64,000 bases of DNA from the NCBI GenBank assembly GCA_003116855.1, contig BEWT01000005.1:1-64000 (forward strand). The letters run 5' to 3'. Under the pieces are notes generated by a model that saw nothing but the letters and a program-made list of their open reading frames with translations, had not been told where the DNA came from and ran no database searches. Made by a program: the position numbers and the translations under genes. Source of the stretch: Desulfurococcaceae archaeon AG1 (GTDB lineage: Archaea; Thermoproteota; Thermoprotei_A; Sulfolobales; AG1). Positions 4,756-53,451 of this stretch are shown in pieces (position 1 is the stretch's first letter; each line of letters starts with the position of its first letter).

Positions 4756-5119
4756 GACCCGATCACCATAACAATATCTTTAATTAAAAATATATCTATC
4801 ACACTAATGTATCATGGATCTGTGCCCATAATAACATAAATAAAACCATAATCCTGCGCTCTGCCCTAATAAGCTGGTTTCGATGTCAACCCTTGATCGT
4901 GTTGAAGGATACCACTCAGGCAGACAGGGCTTATCCTAAAGATCTCCATATCGCTTGGCTCAGCATCGCGCACAAACCACAGGATAGAGATCCCTGTAGA
5001 GTATATGGGAGTTTTTAGATGAGATGTAGAAGGACATAGAAGAAAAACAAATAATATCAACAAATATCAAGAGACAAACAGATAACAACATATATCTGAC
5101 TAGTATGAACTATATACTA
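4756..5119. other. Intergenic stretch, no confident gene
   Basis: About 365 bases between the ATP-cone gene and fixA. A minus-strand frame (4866-5063, up to 65 codons) has a protein-like second half (FVRDAEPSDMEIFRISPVC) but a poor N-terminal part and no SD; it could be a small gene or a remnant. I see no RNA gene or repeat. The promoter of fixA should lie near the 3' end, where the sequence is AT-rich. Confidence 0.4.
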
Positions 5120-39650: not shown

Positions 39651-40017
39651 GGCCGAAGATTCACTGCTCCAAGATCCATAGATATCCACAATCAGAGGCT
39701 GGCTACTTGCTGATATTCGTAGAAGATCCGTATACGTTTTTAACATATATCGATCTCAGTACAGATTCTGGATTATAGTAGAAGCATTATACAAACCACC
39801 GGAGAATGATCTAATTGGTAGATGGAAGCCATATAGTTGGGCTAGCAGCAGCCATAACCCGTAGGAAAAGAGATCCCTGCGAACTAGGTGAAGATCCCTA
39901 TATAGAGAGCATCAACAAAACCAAGCAATGATCACACATAATGGAATGATCGGGTTTGCAGTTATCTGCAAACCCGGGATATATAATGCCGCTAATTTTT
40001 TCCTGCCCCGAGGTGTT
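39651..40017. other. Upstream region of the giant surface-protein gene
   Basis: About 365 bases without a credible gene. It contains a perfect hairpin (39951-39976) and a TATA box (39979-39987) placed about 30 bases before the SD of the next gene. A weak minus-strand ORF over the tRNA-Ser end is a shadow. Confidence 0.5.
39951..39976. repeat. Perfect inverted repeat upstream of the giant gene promoter
   Basis: CGGGTTTGCAG, loop TTAT, CTGCAAACCCG: eleven perfect pairs with a four-base loop. It ends two bases before the TATA-like ATATATAAT at 39979-39987, where TFB would bind. It may be an operator or the end of an upstream transcript; no U-tract follows. Confidence 0.7.
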
Positions 40018-43000
40018 ATGGTGAGTCTGGCTAGTGCGAGGCCCAAGATCTTCTCTATAGTCTTTCTAGCCCTTTTAATAATATCATTCTCATATAACCT
40101 GGGCTTTGCAACCATATCAGCAGCAGACACACTCATAAGAGAAACCTTAAGGGTTAGAAAAGAAGTTATAATACCCCTCGGGAGAGAATCATACAAACCA
40201 CTCGACTACGTCCACAGGATCCTTTTCCACCTAGAAGATCGATCTAGAAACATATCATCCCTACTAGGAATAATAGGCAAACAAGATCCCCTAGGAAAAA
40301 GACTAGGATGGGACCTAGCAATACCCCTAAAAGACAGAAAACTAATAATCATAAGAACCGAGATCCTTGAAAACAAATGCTACATATATTATATCCTCTA
40401 CAACGACTACACAGACGAGGTCGAGAGAAGCTATGTATACCAAGCAGACCCAGTACTATGCTCCTACGACTATGGTTATGGCGGCATTGAAAGGTTTCAT
40501 AGATCAGGGTTATCGTATGTCGTGCTAAACAACTATACCGTGGCTTTGATAACCAGGATGCCGGCTTTTATAGGGGTTGTAGAGCCTAGCTGGAATAACA
40601 ACTCCGACTTTAAAAAGTATTTCAACGAGCGTAGCGTCTTCGTAGTACTCAGAGTGGGTGATGAGAATCCAAGTGCTAGGGTCATTATTCCAGGGTATCT
40701 TTGGGACGCGTATGGTACTCGTTCAGGTACGGCTAGTGAGAACATATACTACTCCAGCCAGCTTGGCTACTCAGCCATATCTGTTGCTCTTCTATCCCCC
40801 CATATATGGACGGAGAGCTATTGGTATGGCTCTTACTATGTCGATATGGTCTCGAATGCGAGGGTGGATTTGTCAGGGGCTAGAAGACATGCAGGTGTAG
40901 GTCTCTTCAGGGTTTATGATAGCCTGGACATCAAAATAGATCTTTTCAGGCTTGTTAGAGAAGACACACAGGAGTTTAGAGGCAAAGTTGTGAGGACTAG
41001 TGATGGTGGCTACCTACTAGTTGGCGGTGGCGATGGTGATTCGAGTAGGTGTAGGTTCTATGCTGCTAAGATCAACAGCTCCATGGGGCTTGAATGGCTT
41101 AGGAATTACTATGTGAATCTAACAACATACTATGAGGATCTGATGGATATAGCTTCAAAGACCTGGGGCAATAATAGCGAGGCATACCGTCGTGCCAACG
41201 GATCCTACCAAGAGATCCTCAAGCTCCCTCCAAGCGCGAGGGCTAAGCTGTGCGGCAGCTTCCTGTTCGAAGAAGGCATAGTACAACGCACATTGATCCC
41301 GGCGGATGTAAACCTTCCCCACGTCTCAGAGGTTAGAGGGAGTAATGGATCTATACTGGGGTATTTGATAGGCACCAAGCTAGGCGGGACACCATATGGT
41401 GGGGGTGGATATTACTATGGATATGCAACCTTCATGCTAGATCCCAGAGGCAATGTGGTCTGGAATGTTCTTCTAAGCAATGCTGCAGGAGGCCAGGCTT
41501 ATTATCTGGAGAGGTTGGGGAGCGATCTGACTGTGATGGGTATCACGGGGGCTACTGCCTATGGTCCCTACGGCCAGTTCGGCTTGATCAATCTGAGCAG
41601 TGGTGTTTTCACATCACCATGGTATGATCCTGCTGTATGGAATTCTATTGATTTCAGGGCTGCTGCCTCAATGATCCTTTGGGGCTATGGTAGGGCTGTT
41701 GAGACCGAGGATGGTGATGGCTATCTATACACAGATCTCGGTGCATGGGAGTTTAGCTATATCTTTAGTGGTCATGGTCTTGAGATTGGCTATGCTAGGA
41801 AGAACGATCTACTAGCGATCTTCTCAAACGTGAAGAGCCTCTCCTTCAAGAAATGGGTTTTGAGCGAAGAGATCCCTGAAAGTGTTGCCAACATAAGTAT
41901 TAGAAGCTACACACCCCTGGTAGTCGGGGAGGATGGTGTCACAATACCCAACACATCGTATAAAATAACACTATCCAACCCCAATATATTGAAGATAAAA
42001 CACCTAGGAGGAGGCTTCAAACTAGAATCTATATTCAGATACCCACAATACCTCATGCCAGGCTATGGGAGATTCGGATCCCTCCCAACAGGGGCTAGTA
42101 TAGATACTGGGGATGCCACTTTTAGCATTGGCAGTGGTCCTAGCGGGGCTTCTAGCCTATTCCTAACAACAGTAGATCTAGGATCTGTTAAGGTGGGAGA
42201 CGAGATTACCTATAAGATCGAGGGTATAAAGCTAACCAAATTGGGCAGGCCATTATCAGAGAAAATACTCTCGGGAGGTTTTAGAGATATACAATACTCT
42301 TCTGAGGGCTTCACAATCCTTGGAGGAAACCTCTCAAAAGCGGGGTATAAGGAGAGATTCATCCTCGAGGTAAAGCTAAAACCAAACATACCAGGACCAA
42401 GAGCCTACACAGTAAGACTCCCAGCCGAGAACCTCTACCCACCAAACAATCCCCGCGAAGAAAGTCCGGTAACAGTATTATACGGCTATAGGATCCTGTT
42501 TATGGGTCAGGTAACAAACTATGTAGCTATAACAAACCACAGCTCCTATAATATCAGCATAAAATACGCTGTCTCAACAGCAATAACAAGCCCCCCACCA
42601 ACTGCAAGAGTAGGCGTACCAACACCATATAACTTCTACATAACAAACATAGGTAATATAGAGGCCGTTTTCATATATGCATTTCTAATGCCATTCTACA
42701 TAAGAGCCCAAAGTGTCCTAGGAGCAGACCTCTACCTAATCCCAAGAGAGGTTGAAGACGGCGATATGGTTGCCTTAGCAGCAATTAAAATACCCCCAGG
42801 AGGTATGAGAACAATCCAAGTAATAGCAGTAGCACCAAGCAACTATATATATGAATTCAACCCACAGGGATCCTGGAAAGGATTCTCAATATCAATACGT
42901 GGTGCAGGCTTCGCGAACGGCTACAACCCACTTCCAGTCCAAGTAGCAACTTTATCCCCAGATCTATGGAACAACTTAACAAAGAAGCATAGAAACAATA

Positions 43001-46000
43001 TACCAGCACTATTCAACGAATCAATAGAGATAGGGCTAGATCTTGAGGAGAAGTTCTTCGACGACCTTATAGATAGGTGGTGGAGTAACGGCTCAGAAGC
43101 CTCAAAAATAGTGAAAGACCTAGCCATGTTGGAAGACTCAGGCACCTTTGGGAAAAAACTAGCTGAAGCTATAACAAGCAAGTTTTATAGAAAACAGATA
43201 TGGAGCTACGTAGAGGATTTTAAGAGAAATGGGAGACCCGGCGGCTTCTACACCTCCCCCCTCGATATAGCGCATGAAGAGACTGTGTATAGATATAACA
43301 AGATGCTTGACAAAAACCCAGAGCTCCTTACAACAAGCAGAGGATCCAAGTTACCGATAAACATAGAGATGATCGTAGAGGTGTCTCAGAGCTATAGCTT
43401 TATGCAGCTACTCTCAAAAGCAGTAAGCCCTAAGTATAGCTACATACCAGTAGCTATCGAGAACACACCACAGTCAGCATCCCTCCAAACACCACAACAA
43501 GGAGCAGGATCATCATCCACAATCCAACACCTCTCCCTCGGAAGCGCATTCAAATCCCTTTCCTCCATCGCGCTCCAAAGCCAGGGCCAGGGATCCACGG
43601 TGATAGGCTATATGGATGCAATGACAAAGAACTGTCTAGACCTCTATGCAATGTTCGGGATAAAAGCAGCCCTACTCAGCCCCGAAGAAATCCGCAAACT
43701 CAACGAGGCCCTTAAAAACCTACCCATATACAAAGACCCCGACGCCCTTGCCCGCTACCTAGTTGACAAGATCCTCTCAGCCATTTTCTCCAAGAGAGCA
43801 AAACTGGTCGAGAAATACGGCACAGCGGACCCCTCACTGATCCTCCAAATGGCTCTAGAGAGGTTAAAGACCAACCCCAACGACCCAGTGGCGCGGGATA
43901 TGGTGAACGAAGCCATCGACCTTCTGAAAAGCACAAGCCTAGAGAACCAGTTATACTACTTACTCAAAGGCACCCCTATTTTTGTCCAGGCTACTGCCCA
44001 GGGCTTGGATGAAGCCGCCAAGACTCCCCTGATGGGCCTGTTAACAGGCATACTATCAAGCGCACTCGACACAGTACTAGTTAGTTATCTCGATAACAGC
44101 GGTGTCTCAGCAGTCCTAGCCAGGTACGGGATCTATGTAGGGGGTTCTGAGTACGCCTATAAGGGAGACCCAGGCGTTATTCTCTATAATATGGCTAGTA
44201 TCGGTATAGCATTATACGACCTAGGCAGCTTCGCCAAATCACTACCCGAGGATCTGGTGAAAGCGGGCACCATGTACACGGCTAGCACTAAGGGTATCGC
44301 TGTGCAGTTTGGTAAGCTCGCAGACGAGCTTGATCTCAGCAACACCAGGATCCTTTCGGTGAACGAGATCTCTATAAACAGCCTGGAGGACTCCTTGATC
44401 AAAATACTCTCACAGCGTAAGTGGGGAGAAGGTAGCGAGGATATCTTGAAAAGCATCTTCAGCGAAGCCGCCGCTACAAGCCAGCTCAAGGATCTAAAGA
44501 AGGTTGGCGATAAGAAGGTTGTGAGTAAGAATGGATACGAGATCTTCGAGCAGAGCTTGAAGAAGGCTAAAGGAAACATTATCATAGATGTTAGAAGTTC
44601 CGGCGGTGTTGAGTCCGCAGGAGGCTTCACGATCACCCTGTCCAGGCAGGCTGGCGATACACCAACCATCTCCATAGTATCGAGCTCAAGCGTTGCCAAA
44701 ACCGTTGAGATCAATGGCGATACGATCAAGCTCTCCGACATTACTATCTACAAGAGCATCCTGCCCGGTCCGAAGAAACAGATTATCCCCTACGCATACT
44801 CCCAGAGCGCGGATACCTTCTTCATCAGTGCCGAGGAAGTGAAAAACTATGTGAAGTATATAAAATCCAGCGACCCCAGCTACGACAATGTTAAACGTCT
44901 CATAAACAAGCTTGGAGAGAATGGTATGACTGCGATCTCCCAGTACCTAGATTTCCTAAGAAAGGAGGGTAAGGTTGATAACTATGCCATAGAAGCCCTT
45001 AAGTTCTATGGCTTCTATAAAAAACTCCTCTCCCTCGATCAAAGCATGATCTCTCCAGAATTGTTGAAAGCATTTAGAGATAAATATGGCGACAAGGGTT
45101 GGGAAGAGGTTTTCCAGAACCTTATGAAAGAGGGTAATTTCAAGGAGATCCTTGATTGGGGAAGTAGGCTTGGCCTCAGCCCCGACAAGATCAGTGTAAA
45201 GACGCTTAGTGATAAAGATATCGGTAACCTTGTCAAAACTCTAACTTCGGGCAACGATCTAGGCAGCATTGATGCCCTAGACTCTGCAGAATTAGCGAAA
45301 AAAGCCTATGAAACTCAATCCTCCCTCGATCAGCTTGGATCATCGCTAGAAGCTCTCACCAATAATCCATTACTATCAGGCGGTGATGTGAATGCATATA
45401 TAAGCCTCCTCAAGGCTGCTGCAAACTATAGAGGTAAAACCCTAGAGGATTGTGCAAAACACAAACAAGTTGGGAAAGAGGGGGATACTGTTAACCTTAG
45501 AATAGGTGATAACATCTACACACTCAAAATCACCAGAGATCCCGACAAGACTCCTATGAGATCCTCCTCCGTGAGGATTATAGCCTCTATAGATCCCAAC
45601 CAAGTCTCCGTAACCCCCGATAGGTTTATAAGGCTTCCCGGTCAGGAACTCGGTATACTTGCCGAGTTTGAAAACTATGCCAATGCCAGTGCCGAGGCTG
45701 TTAATGTTACTGTGAACCTCGTGATCAAGGGTCCGATAGATCCAAAATCCGTAGAGGTTGTTGACGTTAGTAGGAGGGATGCATATATATCATGGTCCAT
45801 GAACACTTCCAGCGGATCTATAGTGTACAGGATCCTCTTCGAAAACATAAACCTACCACCCAATAAGAAACCTCCAGAGGGCCAGGGCTGGGTCCTGTTT
45901 AAGGCAAAAACACTAGATAATATAAAAACAGGAGACACAATCGAGATCTATGCAGACATAGTCTTCGACTACAACCCACCCCTAAGAACCAATATAGTCA

Positions 46001-46527
46001 ACCTCCTAGCAGATCTAGAACCTCCTAGAACAACCCTTAAAAACGCCGTGGTTGATGGAAGAACACTAACAATAGAAGCCCAATGCACAGACACAGGATC
46101 AGGATGTCACGAAACCCTAATAACCCTCAGAAATACACGGGGCCTTGAAAGGAACTTCGCAACAAACACATCAACAGGATCTATAGGACTAGCAATAGAT
46201 CTAAGCGATATAGAGCCAGGAAGCTACACAATAACAATAGTATCAAAAGACGTAGCAGGAAACGTAGAGAGTAAGAACACGCCAGATACTACAATAACAA
46301 TACAGAAACAAGAAGCAATAACAACAACAACAATAGCAACAGAAACTATAATACCAGCACCTACAATAACAATAGCAACAACACAGACAACATCGCAAAC
46401 AACAACACAGACAACAAAACCTGAGGATGGGAAACCGTCAATAGATATAATGCCAGTAATAATAGCGATAATTCTGGTAGCAGTTGGTATCGCCATATAT
46501 ATGGTTAAGAGGAAGAGGGTAGGGTAG
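40018..46527 (+). CDS. Giant exported, C-terminally membrane-anchored surface protein
   Basis: About 2169 residues from ATG 40018, with SD GAGGTG two bases upstream and a signal peptide (SIVFLALLIISFSYNLGFATISAA). The N-terminal third is beta-rich and Tyr/Gly-rich. The middle is largely helical and Lys/Asp-rich. The last 350 residues have beta-sandwich parts (PGQELGILAEFENYANASAEAVNV; GDTIEIYADIVFDYNPPLRTNIV; TIEAQCTDTGSGCHETLITL) of a DUF11/Ig-like kind. A Thr-rich linker, one membrane helix (IMPVIIAIILVAVGIAIYMV) and basic residues close it. This plan fits an S-layer-associated or adhesive protein; the function of the middle is unknown. It is flanked by tRNA-Ser and tRNA-Leu. Confidence 0.8.
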   Translation: MVSLASARPKIFSIVFLALLIISFSYNLGFATISAADTLIRETLRVRKEVIIPLGRESYKPLDYVHRILFHLEDRSRNISSLLGIIGKQDPLGKRLGWDLAIPLKDRKLIIIRTEILENKCYIYYILYNDYTDEVERSYVYQADPVLCSYDYGYGGIERFHRSGLSYVVLNNYTVALITRMPAFIGVVEPSWNNNSDFKKYFNERSVFVVLRVGDENPSARVIIPGYLWDAYGTRSGTASENIYYSSQLGYSAISVALLSPHIWTESYWYGSYYVDMVSNARVDLSGARRHAGVGLFRVYDSLDIKIDLFRLVREDTQEFRGKVVRTSDGGYLLVGGGDGDSSRCRFYAAKINSSMGLEWLRNYYVNLTTYYEDLMDIASKTWGNNSEAYRRANGSYQEILKLPPSARAKLCGSFLFEEGIVQRTLIPADVNLPHVSEVRGSNGSILGYLIGTKLGGTPYGGGGYYYGYATFMLDPRGNVVWNVLLSNAAGGQAYYLERLGSDLTVMGITGATAYGPYGQFGLINLSSGVFTSPWYDPAVWNSIDFRAAASMILWGYGRAVETEDGDGYLYTDLGAWEFSYIFSGHGLEIGYARKNDLLAIFSNVKSLSFKKWVLSEEIPESVANISIRSYTPLVVGEDGVTIPNTSYKITLSNPNILKIKHLGGGFKLESIFRYPQYLMPGYGRFGSLPTGASIDTGDATFSIGSGPSGASSLFLTTVDLGSVKVGDEITYKIEGIKLTKLGRPLSEKILSGGFRDIQYSSEGFTILGGNLSKAGYKERFILEVKLKPNIPGPRAYTVRLPAENLYPPNNPREESPVTVLYGYRILFMGQVTNYVAITNHSSYNISIKYAVSTAITSPPPTARVGVPTPYNFYITNIGNIEAVFIYAFLMPFYIRAQSVLGADLYLIPREVEDGDMVALAAIKIPPGGMRTIQVIAVAPSNYIYEFNPQGSWKGFSISIRGAGFANGYNPLPVQVATLSPDLWNNLTKKHRNNIPALFNESIEIGLDLEEKFFDDLIDRWWSNGSEASKIVKDLAMLEDSGTFGKKLAEAITSKFYRKQIWSYVEDFKRNGRPGGFYTSPLDIAHEETVYRYNKMLDKNPELLTTSRGSKLPINIEMIVEVSQSYSFMQLLSKAVSPKYSYIPVAIENTPQSASLQTPQQGAGSSSTIQHLSLGSAFKSLSSIALQSQGQGSTVIGYMDAMTKNCLDLYAMFGIKAALLSPEEIRKLNEALKNLPIYKDPDALARYLVDKILSAIFSKRAKLVEKYGTADPSLILQMALERLKTNPNDPVARDMVNEAIDLLKSTSLENQLYYLLKGTPIFVQATAQGLDEAAKTPLMGLLTGILSSALDTVLVSYLDNSGVSAVLARYGIYVGGSEYAYKGDPGVILYNMASIGIALYDLGSFAKSLPEDLVKAGTMYTASTKGIAVQFGKLADELDLSNTRILSVNEISINSLEDSLIKILSQRKWGEGSEDILKSIFSEAAATSQLKDLKKVGDKKVVSKNGYEIFEQSLKKAKGNIIIDVRSSGGVESAGGFTITLSRQAGDTPTISIVSSSSVAKTVEINGDTIKLSDITIYKSILPGPKKQIIPYAYSQSADTFFISAEEVKNYVKYIKSSDPSYDNVKRLINKLGENGMTAISQYLDFLRKEGKVDNYAIEALKFYGFYKKLLSLDQSMISPELLKAFRDKYGDKGWEEVFQNLMKEGNFKEILDWGSRLGLSPDKISVKTLSDKDIGNLVKTLTSGNDLGSIDALDSAELAKKAYETQSSLDQLGSSLEALTNNPLLSGGDVNAYISLLKAAANYRGKTLEDCAKHKQVGKEGDTVNLRIGDNIYTLKITRDPDKTPMRSSSVRIIASIDPNQVSVTPDRFIRLPGQELGILAEFENYANASAEAVNVTVNLVIKGPIDPKSVEVVDVSRRDAYISWSMNTSSGSIVYRILFENINLPPNKKPPEGQGWVLFKAKTLDNIKTGDTIEIYADIVFDYNPPLRTNIVNLLADLEPPRTTLKNAVVDGRTLTIEAQCTDTGSGCHETLITLRNTRGLERNFATNTSTGSIGLAIDLSDIEPGSYTITIVSKDVAGNVESKNTPDTTITIQKQEAITTTTIATETIIPAPTITIATTQTTSQTTTQTTKPEDGKPSIDIMPVIIAIILVAVGIAIYMVKRKRVG

Positions 46528-49234: not shown

Positions 49235-49908
49235 CCACCCATGGTCCCTGAGAAAACCTTTCAGTATAACCGTTTATCTCTCAATATAATGAGCTAATAT
49301 CCAGAGACTTCAGCCTTGCTACATAGGGTATGATATATGGAGATCCTTATTGATTCACGAATCGTAGCTAAACCAGCTGTGTAGGTCTCTTATCTACCAG
49401 GAGATAATCCTTGATAGATTGAAACAATGCCCACAATACTCAGAGGAGTAGGGGATTCAATATCGAGATCAGCCCGTCTCTAAAGCACCATCAAAAAGCT
49501 ACCAAGTCTTTCCAGGATATTAAAAATAAACGGCTCCATAGCATATTGTTATTAGAGTGGTGTATGAGGAGGAATCCGGGATCTGAATATGTGATGAGCA
49601 AAAATACTCGCTGATCGTCTTATTGTTGTCGGAAACATGATCTAACGCTCCGTTAGGTTGATAATCCGGTCTTAAGGAAAAGCTGTGTCCAGTACTATGA
49701 ATCGCATGTAAGGCTCTTATGAGTGCAAAGCTGGATATTATTTTATTGGCTCACTACAGGATCTATTCAATGATCTATGATGTTAGAACGATCTGAGATT
49801 TATTAACGGATCTTGTGAGCTTGAGAGTCTATATTGATACACCGGTCAAGAATATATTGAGCTATAGTCTTTCATATATTTGGGCAGGCTTTGTAAGGGT
49901 GTGTTTTC
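49235..49908. other. Intergenic upstream of the MscS-like gene
   Basis: About 670 bases with no credible ORF. It includes a possible C/D RNA start (GTGATGA at 49591-49597, 13 bases, CTGA at 49611-49614), but no good second half. AT-rich promoter-like runs occur near 49517-49530 and 49850-49870. Confidence 0.4.
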
Positions 49909-52834: not shown

Positions 52835-53102
52835 TAGCTCTTTTTCCCATAGTAGTTTTTATAGAACTGTTATATGAGCTTTTATAGCTAAGAATCGGCT
52901 TAACGTAGATTAACAATATATTGTGAGAGGTGTAGTAGGAAAACACTATGCAGCTTACGACTTGAGGACTTCTTACACAGCTTTGTAATAGGCCTGCTCC
53001 TTGGTAGGATTTTATAATCTAGAGATCTTTTTACACCGTGATTCAATAGGGCTGTTTTCTTTTTGACATCCATAGGGAGGATTAATAGGTTTTGGAAATT
53101 TT
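52835..53102. other. Intergenic, doubtful 34-codon ORF
   Basis: A plus frame at 52916-53017 encodes a short Cys-containing peptide (YCERCSRKTLCSLRLEDF...) if an ATA start is allowed. A TTTATA lies about 33 bases upstream. Without homologs this is not enough to call a gene. The rest is AT-rich with nothing recognised. Confidence 0.3.
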
Positions 53103-53388
53103 CATGGGTATTGGGGTATGCCTGGAGGCTGCTTCCTCGCCAACACCCAGGGTATTTATGAGCTTTGAAAGATACTGCCCTCGGTGTGGGTCTCCCCACA
53201 CAAACCCTGGATGACGATGGAAGCAGTGCTCCAAGCTATCTGGGGAGTAAGCTAGATGGGAGCCACGTGCCGTTTGGCTCGATGGCCGCCCATGACCCCG
53301 CAGGGTTAGAGACCCTGCGGGTATAGGTGGAAGTCCCTGGATATGACCATGAATAAAAATAAAGTGAGTGGAATGAACATCCAGGGAC
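53103..53388. ncRNA. Structured GC-rich RNA candidate, class unknown
   Basis: A GC-rich island with many exact inverted repeats. CATGGG 53103-53108 pairs with CCCATG 53289-53294. GCCTGGAG-CTGCTTCC (from 53120) pairs with GGAAGCAG-CTCCAAGC (53219-53236). CCAGGGT 53147-53153 pairs with ACCCTGG 53204-53210. GTGTGGG/CCCACAC is at 53184-53201, GAGCCA/TGGCTC at 53260-53280, CCCGCAGGGT/ACCCTGCGGG at 53297-53321, and GTCCCTGGAT/ATCCAGGGAC at 53333-53388. In AT-richer hyperthermophile DNA such islands usually mark functional RNAs. I could not match it to SRP RNA, RNase P RNA or 5S rRNA. The strand is uncertain: a TATA-like run at about 53400-53416 could drive the minus strand, and a T-rich end favours plus. 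Confidence 0.55.
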
Positions 53389-53451
53389 AAACGGTTCTTT
53401 ATTAATACTTTATTAATAGATAGGGCTAGCATAGAAATGGTGGGGAGGATT

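Follow-up and report, generated by a model that had tools for sequence, protein, structure and literature searches.

The window analysed here, a stretch of 64,000 nucleotides from Desulfurococcaceae archaeon AG1 (GCA_003116855.1, contig BEWT01000005.1, positions 1 to 64,000, forward strand), has a structured segment lying between a gene pair encoding a TrkA-C/RCK protein and an amino-acid permease, and a gene for a PD-(D/E)XK (Cas4-like) nuclease. These are the neighbours that the initial annotation had named when it proposed a large GC-rich RNA of unknown class at 53103-53388. The composition it had noted was borne out, the GC content being 0.52-0.57 in the structured stretch vs about 0.44 around it. 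The strength of the structure was borne out also: the fold of 53083-53408 has z scores of -4.0 on the (+) strand and -7.0 on the (-) strand relative to dinucleotide shuffles, none of which folded as well, and the z scores for 53178-53397 and 53182-53388 are -5.3 and -6.2, respectively. As annotated, the stretch matches no known class; no Rfam family reached its gathering score and none was meaningful at E<=10. The weak scores of snR57, mascRNA and Bacilli-1 are at chance level, and the RAGATH-18 reRNA gave no cmscan match up to E 10. Neither SRP RNA nor RNase P RNA, the two classes that had been considered as possible names for it, matches here. SRP RNA is further discounted because the genome has its own at C16:184638-184946, an Archaea_SRP match that normally represents a single such locus. 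Elsewhere in the window, 39928-46527 encodes a predicted surface protein of 2199 residues, with a Thr-rich stretch and then a C-terminal membrane anchor, between two tRNA genes.

What had been overlooked is that the segment is repeated. In the 2.0-Mb AG1 genome, blastn found 34 matches to the window repeat. Aligned with their flanks, the copies have sharp common ends and unrelated DNA outside: they begin with GGCTGTTTTC, at 53050 in the window, and finish with ACAAACGG, at 53394. Comparison of the copies indicates that the feature is one copy of a dispersed element, not a lone RNA gene, and the repeat unit, a whole non-autonomous MITE-like element of the IS607 type, spans 53050-53394 (+) in place of the boundaries first annotated. 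A search with a covariance model gave 49 hits for the genome, and the 28 strong copies, which exceed 90 bits, comprise one complete IS607-type element encoding TnpA and TnpB, four elements with tnpB only, and 23 gene-less ones including the window copy. Two very weak matches to the model in the window (about 20 bits), at 49270-49447 (-) and 4892-5081 (+), are possibly old remnants and possibly due to chance. The left end occurs in two forms, the long one of the window copy and one shorter by about 90-100 nt. The CATGGG/CCCATG pair that was thought to close the structure does not survive the comparison: its 5' side reads CATAAG in copy L012, TATAAG in L013 and CATGAG in L025 while the 3' side stays GCCCATGAC, and the 5' segment is absent from the short-form copies.

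The setting that the annotation gave for the RNA, with the RCK operon on one side and the nuclease gene on the other, turns out to be that of an insertion. In the nearest relative, a congener (G001), the permease, RCK and nuclease genes are conserved; the RCK and nuclease genes lie about 280 nt apart, and no element was detected between them. Because this orthologous site is empty, the window copy is most simply a lineage-specific insertion, rather than the result of a loss in G001; this insertion difference is the one sign of transposition seen at the locus. The base 5' of the element is G in 20 of 23 copies, and GG is found at both termini. This preference agrees with the (G)GG target reported for the IS607 family, whose members insert without target duplication (PMC6188088). 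Frame arguments suggest that the core bases of the target number 0 or 3, not 2. One copy (L011) interrupts a gene for a PLP-dependent-enzyme-like protein, and there is no long target duplication, since a homologue in another genome spans the joint with one codon to spare. A tnpB-only copy (L054) interrupts an MFS transporter gene that is intact in G001 (L182), and about 44 codons beside the insertion are missing.

The proteins of the complete copy (L051) identify the parent. Its first ORF is TnpA, which scores 232.8 bits with the IS607 transposase model NF033518 (cut-off 110), the Pfam domains being in agreement. Among solved structures the closest is the catalytic domain of ISC1926 TnpA (E 5e-61) and ISC1904 also matches, both from Sulfolobus IS607 elements, of the family that targets GG without duplication (PMC6188088). 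The second ORF is TnpB, scoring 111.4 with the guided_TnpB model (cut-off 100). No serine recombinase besides this TnpA was found in the genome, nor was a Y1 (IS200/IS605) transposase, which had been considered as a mobiliser. Both LE and RE are common to L051 and the window element. In the latter the left end (53050-53100, +; GGCTGTTTTCTTTTTGACATCCATAGG...) has its first 18 nt as in L051 and 54-65 nt as in the tnpB-only copies L053 and L054. Sequence comparison has thus shown the window element to have ends and target preference in common with the complete IS607 element of its own genome. The TnpBs of the four tnpB-only copies (L052-L055, on C15, C13, C4 and C11), whose RNA is the nearest, keep RuvC-like motifs and have an atypical zinc finger, CPxH...C...H in place of two CxxC, in which the L051 TnpB differs from them; L054 (95.6) and L052 (89.1) score just under the guided_TnpB cut-off of 100. 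Two more tnpB-like genes, L056 (C5:129560-129760) and L057 (C6:5096-5275), lie in surroundings that match neither the family ends nor the RNA.

In the gene-bearing copies, five in AG1 and about 30 other tnpB-linked ones, the RNA segment and the 3' end of tnpB overlap. The RNA is there encoded at the right end and finishes where the element does, so that the flank would serve as the guide. The fold covaries and is common to gene-bearing and gene-less copies. In an alignment of 73 sequences from AG1 and its relatives, extending from the first scaffold stem to the right end, 89.6% of the cells of a 52-pair structure pair, vs 79.4% after shuffling, with 0 of 500 shuffles as high; when the structure was slid along the alignment as a control, pairing went down to 38-45%. 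Covariance across relatives had been proposed as a check on the candidate, and compensatory changes were found, 33 of the 52 pairs having changed on both sides.

On the (+) strand, the structure begins with a 5' hairpin at 53184-53201 (GTGTGGG-TCTC-CCCACAC), which is present in most gene-less copies of AG1 and absent from tnpB-linked ones. Scaffold helix 1 (53205-53245), with many compensatory changes, pairs 53205-53213 with 53237-53245 and has an inner stem. The alignment next gives a core hairpin (53260-53280) with a GAGCCA/TGGCTC stem and the pseudoknot strand CCGUUU (53270-53275) in its loop. The two long stems of the annotation are present and covary across relatives. One is a GC-rich hairpin (53297-53321) in which CCCGCAGGG (53297-53305) pairs with CCCTGCGGG (53313-53321), closed by an outer GCCGCC/GGTGG helix. 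The other is the right-end stem (53333-53388), with GTCCCTGGAT (53333-53342) paired to ATCCAGGGAC (53379-53388). The right terminus (53387-53394) closes the element with AAACGG (53389-53394), complementary to the CCGUUU of the core-hairpin loop 114 nt upstream, with which it pairs as a pseudoknot adjoining the predicted guide. Five of its pairs (CCGUU/AACGG) are kept in most of the 73 sequences, and covariation support for it is thin because the pairs are mostly invariant, copy L018, changed on both sides, being the one compensatory case. The ISDra2 omegaRNA has a similar arrangement: its bases immediately 5' of the guide are paired to a segment farther upstream, and this pseudoknot is said to be shared by Cas12-type guide RNAs (PMC10097598). 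The predicted guide itself, assigned from its position, is the host flank at 53395-53414 (TTCTTTATTAATACTTTATT), which is unlike at each copy.

The right-end position, the overlap with tnpB, the variable flank and the pseudoknot, taken together, mark the RNA as the TnpB guide RNA of this IS607 lineage. We put at about 0.85 the probability that the window element is an IS607 MITE carrying a TnpB guide-RNA (omegaRNA) scaffold. The structured RNA of unknown class therefore stands in so far as it lies outside Rfam and shows compensatory changes; as a free-standing gene it does not, being instead the right-end part of a non-autonomous IS607 element. Guide loci without an adjacent nuclease gene have a reported precedent: Altae-Tran et al. 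in 2021 are said to have described trans-encoded IscB omegaRNAs in Ktedonobacter, which differ in belonging to the IscB/Cas9 lineage and to a bacterium.

Among known systems, those close by description include the IS607 elements of Staphylothermus marinus, where one two-ORF and four one-ORF elements were found in 2009 together with 14 copies of a related gene-less repeat of about 260 nt (PMC2678158). The order and the population structure are the same as in AG1. However, those MITEs were described as DNA repeats resembling the region upstream of the transposase genes, and the guide RNA was not recognised (PMC2678158). The reRNA of bacterial IS607 TnpB, derived from RAGATH-18, is likewise a right-end guide RNA with a pseudoknotted scaffold and a 20-nt guide, but it lies wholly outside the coding sequence (PMC11061315), whereas the window-family RNA overlaps the end of tnpB. 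In that overlap, and in having several stems and a guide-adjacent pseudoknot, the latter resembles the ISDra2 omegaRNA and the haloarchaeal sotRNAs (RF02656, RF02657) (PMC10097598; PMC12558985). Those elements are nevertheless IS200/IS605, with a Y1 transposase and A/T-rich TAMs, and their RNAs have no sequence or model match to the window RNA. Other types of omegaRNA have been described from archaea (PMC12558985). No paper identifying IS607 MITEs as guide-RNA carriers was found in a search of mostly open-access literature, and it appears that these MITEs, known since 2009, have not been described as such in the literature searched.

In the gene-less copies the RNA has been separated from its gene. 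The annotation saw no plausible protein frame, yet 53207-53326 (+), by frame comparison, is the decayed final coding part of tnpB (LDDDGSSAPSYLGSKLDGSHVPFGSMAAHDPAG...), closed by an in-frame stop. Upstream, at 53155-53162 (+), is a TATA box that reads TTTATGAG. The consensus for the family is TTTATAAG, and L051 has that box before tnpA. Transcription is predicted to start at about 53180-53187. The loci fetched were 35 tnpB-linked and 87 not, a ratio that is no census because the loci were drawn from the best matches. With a strict anchor in place of a looser one, 31 of 34 linked copies were found to have an open tnpB-tail frame, vs 20 of 80 gene-less ones. A TATA box precedes the scaffold in 12 of 22 gene-less copies of AG1 (expected 1.7) and 22 of 58 in other genomes (expected 5.4), vs 1 of 34 tnpB-linked copies. 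About half of the AG1 gene-less copies thus have it some 100 nt upstream of the core; the internal deletion has in this way often brought a left-end promoter next to the guide RNA. By these comparisons, the window element is one without tnpA and most of tnpB, in which the left end with a putative TATA promoter and the right end with the candidate guide scaffold have been kept.

How such an element might persist can be outlined. The TnpA of the single complete copy would mobilise it in trans, and the left-end promoter would drive a standalone omegaRNA of about 215 nt, to which transcription into the flank would add the guide. This RNA may be loaded in trans by one of the TnpBs; a guide RNA supplied in trans has been found to work for a different TnpB, one from S. 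islandicus (PMC11043419). The loaded TnpB would cut an empty copy of the same site, on the sister chromosome or incoming DNA, and repair would copy the element back, favouring retention. With TnpA and TnpB both supplied in trans, the gene-less copies would be parasites of both. We consider the chances about even that the gene-less copies act as trans guides, and it is doubtful that they have been selected for doing so. Equally tentative is the broader proposal that the gene-less copies of a genome, some two dozen of them, may act as a scattered set of standalone TnpB guides, driven by promoters and each directed at the site of its insertion. A few TnpBs would be armed by them in trans, one nuclease gene thereby maintaining many non-autonomous elements across the order.

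The most serious alternative is that the gene-less copies are DNA parasites only, making no functional RNA. On this view the scaffold has persisted through the youth of the copies and the need of TnpA for some of the right end. This alternative has a real though somewhat less than even chance, and it does not compete with the identity given above because an inert MITE would have the same identity and differ only in function. MITE movement needs no RNA, and the first scaffold helix is gone from L015, L016 and L025, which have dispersed all the same. With structure taken into account in the alignment, linked copies have 94-96% pairing, gene-less copies from other genomes 91.9% and those of AG1 85.4%. 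The last value exceeds shuffled controls (81.6%) modestly, in an alignment that leans towards structure, and a sequence-only alignment of the AG1 gene-less copies gives no excess (81.6 vs 80.3%). In AG1, paired sites vary as much as unpaired ones and the subgroup L020, L022 and L024 decays freely; several copies are thus in decay. This lower pairing, variability and decay, together with the atypical zinc finger of the L052-L055 TnpBs and their scores below cut-off, count against guide function. On the other hand, the enrichment of TATA boxes before the RNA, seen only in gene-less copies, and the retention of about 190 nt of the right end across many genomes speak against inert copies. The window copy also keeps 49 of the 52 pairs, and pairing exceeds a neutral simulation of random substitution (mean z 2.2; window copy 3.1), a test that is optimistic because the copies may descend from different intact parents, which could inflate the excess.

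Other explanations fare far worse. A regulatory or housekeeping RNA domesticated by the host and spread as a repeat, with no role as TnpB guide, could account for the strong fold, the wide distribution and the lack of an Rfam class, but is highly improbable given the IS607 ends, the tnpB overlap, the presence/absence variation at orthologous sites, the gene disruption at L011 and the decayed copies. Nor is it at all probable that the pairing simply reflects tnpB coding sequence, with no RNA involved: helices 1-3 do overlap coding sequence in linked copies and 53207-53326 can be read as a TnpB tail, but 60 of the 80 gene-less copies lack an intact frame, the frame-lost set still pairs (86.4 vs 78.7% shuffled), and the right-end stem, located where the L051 tnpB frame ends or past that point, covaries just as strongly.

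The reading of the window element as an IS607 MITE with a guide-RNA scaffold names a large RNA family outside Rfam, present in at least 40 of the 61 sampled genera of the order, and offers an explanation of the IS607 MITEs of 2009 as elements that carry guides for an RNA-guided nuclease. Should the gene-less copies yield functional guides, a non-autonomous element would be exploiting both its parent's transposase and guide-directed retention; if true, the role of TnpB in transposon spread would become testable in hyperthermophiles, where many natural guides stand beside few nucleases.

Hits to the covariance model at E<=1e-8 were obtained for 80 of the 147 genomes and 40 of the 61 genera sampled from the order, some genomes having 15 copies or more, and IS607 TnpA is present in 35 of the 42 multi-copy genomes. 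A scan for the core motif gave no match in viral contigs, and in GTDB genomes it was found almost only in Desulfurococcales and other Thermoprotei. It also occurs in contigs labelled Thermoplasmata, Thermococci and Methanomethylicota (L136, L147 and L169), by horizontal transfer or binning error; L169 carries TnpA and TnpB. Two genomes have large expansions, with 54 (G071) and 22 (G135) IS607 TnpA matches, many of them truncated.
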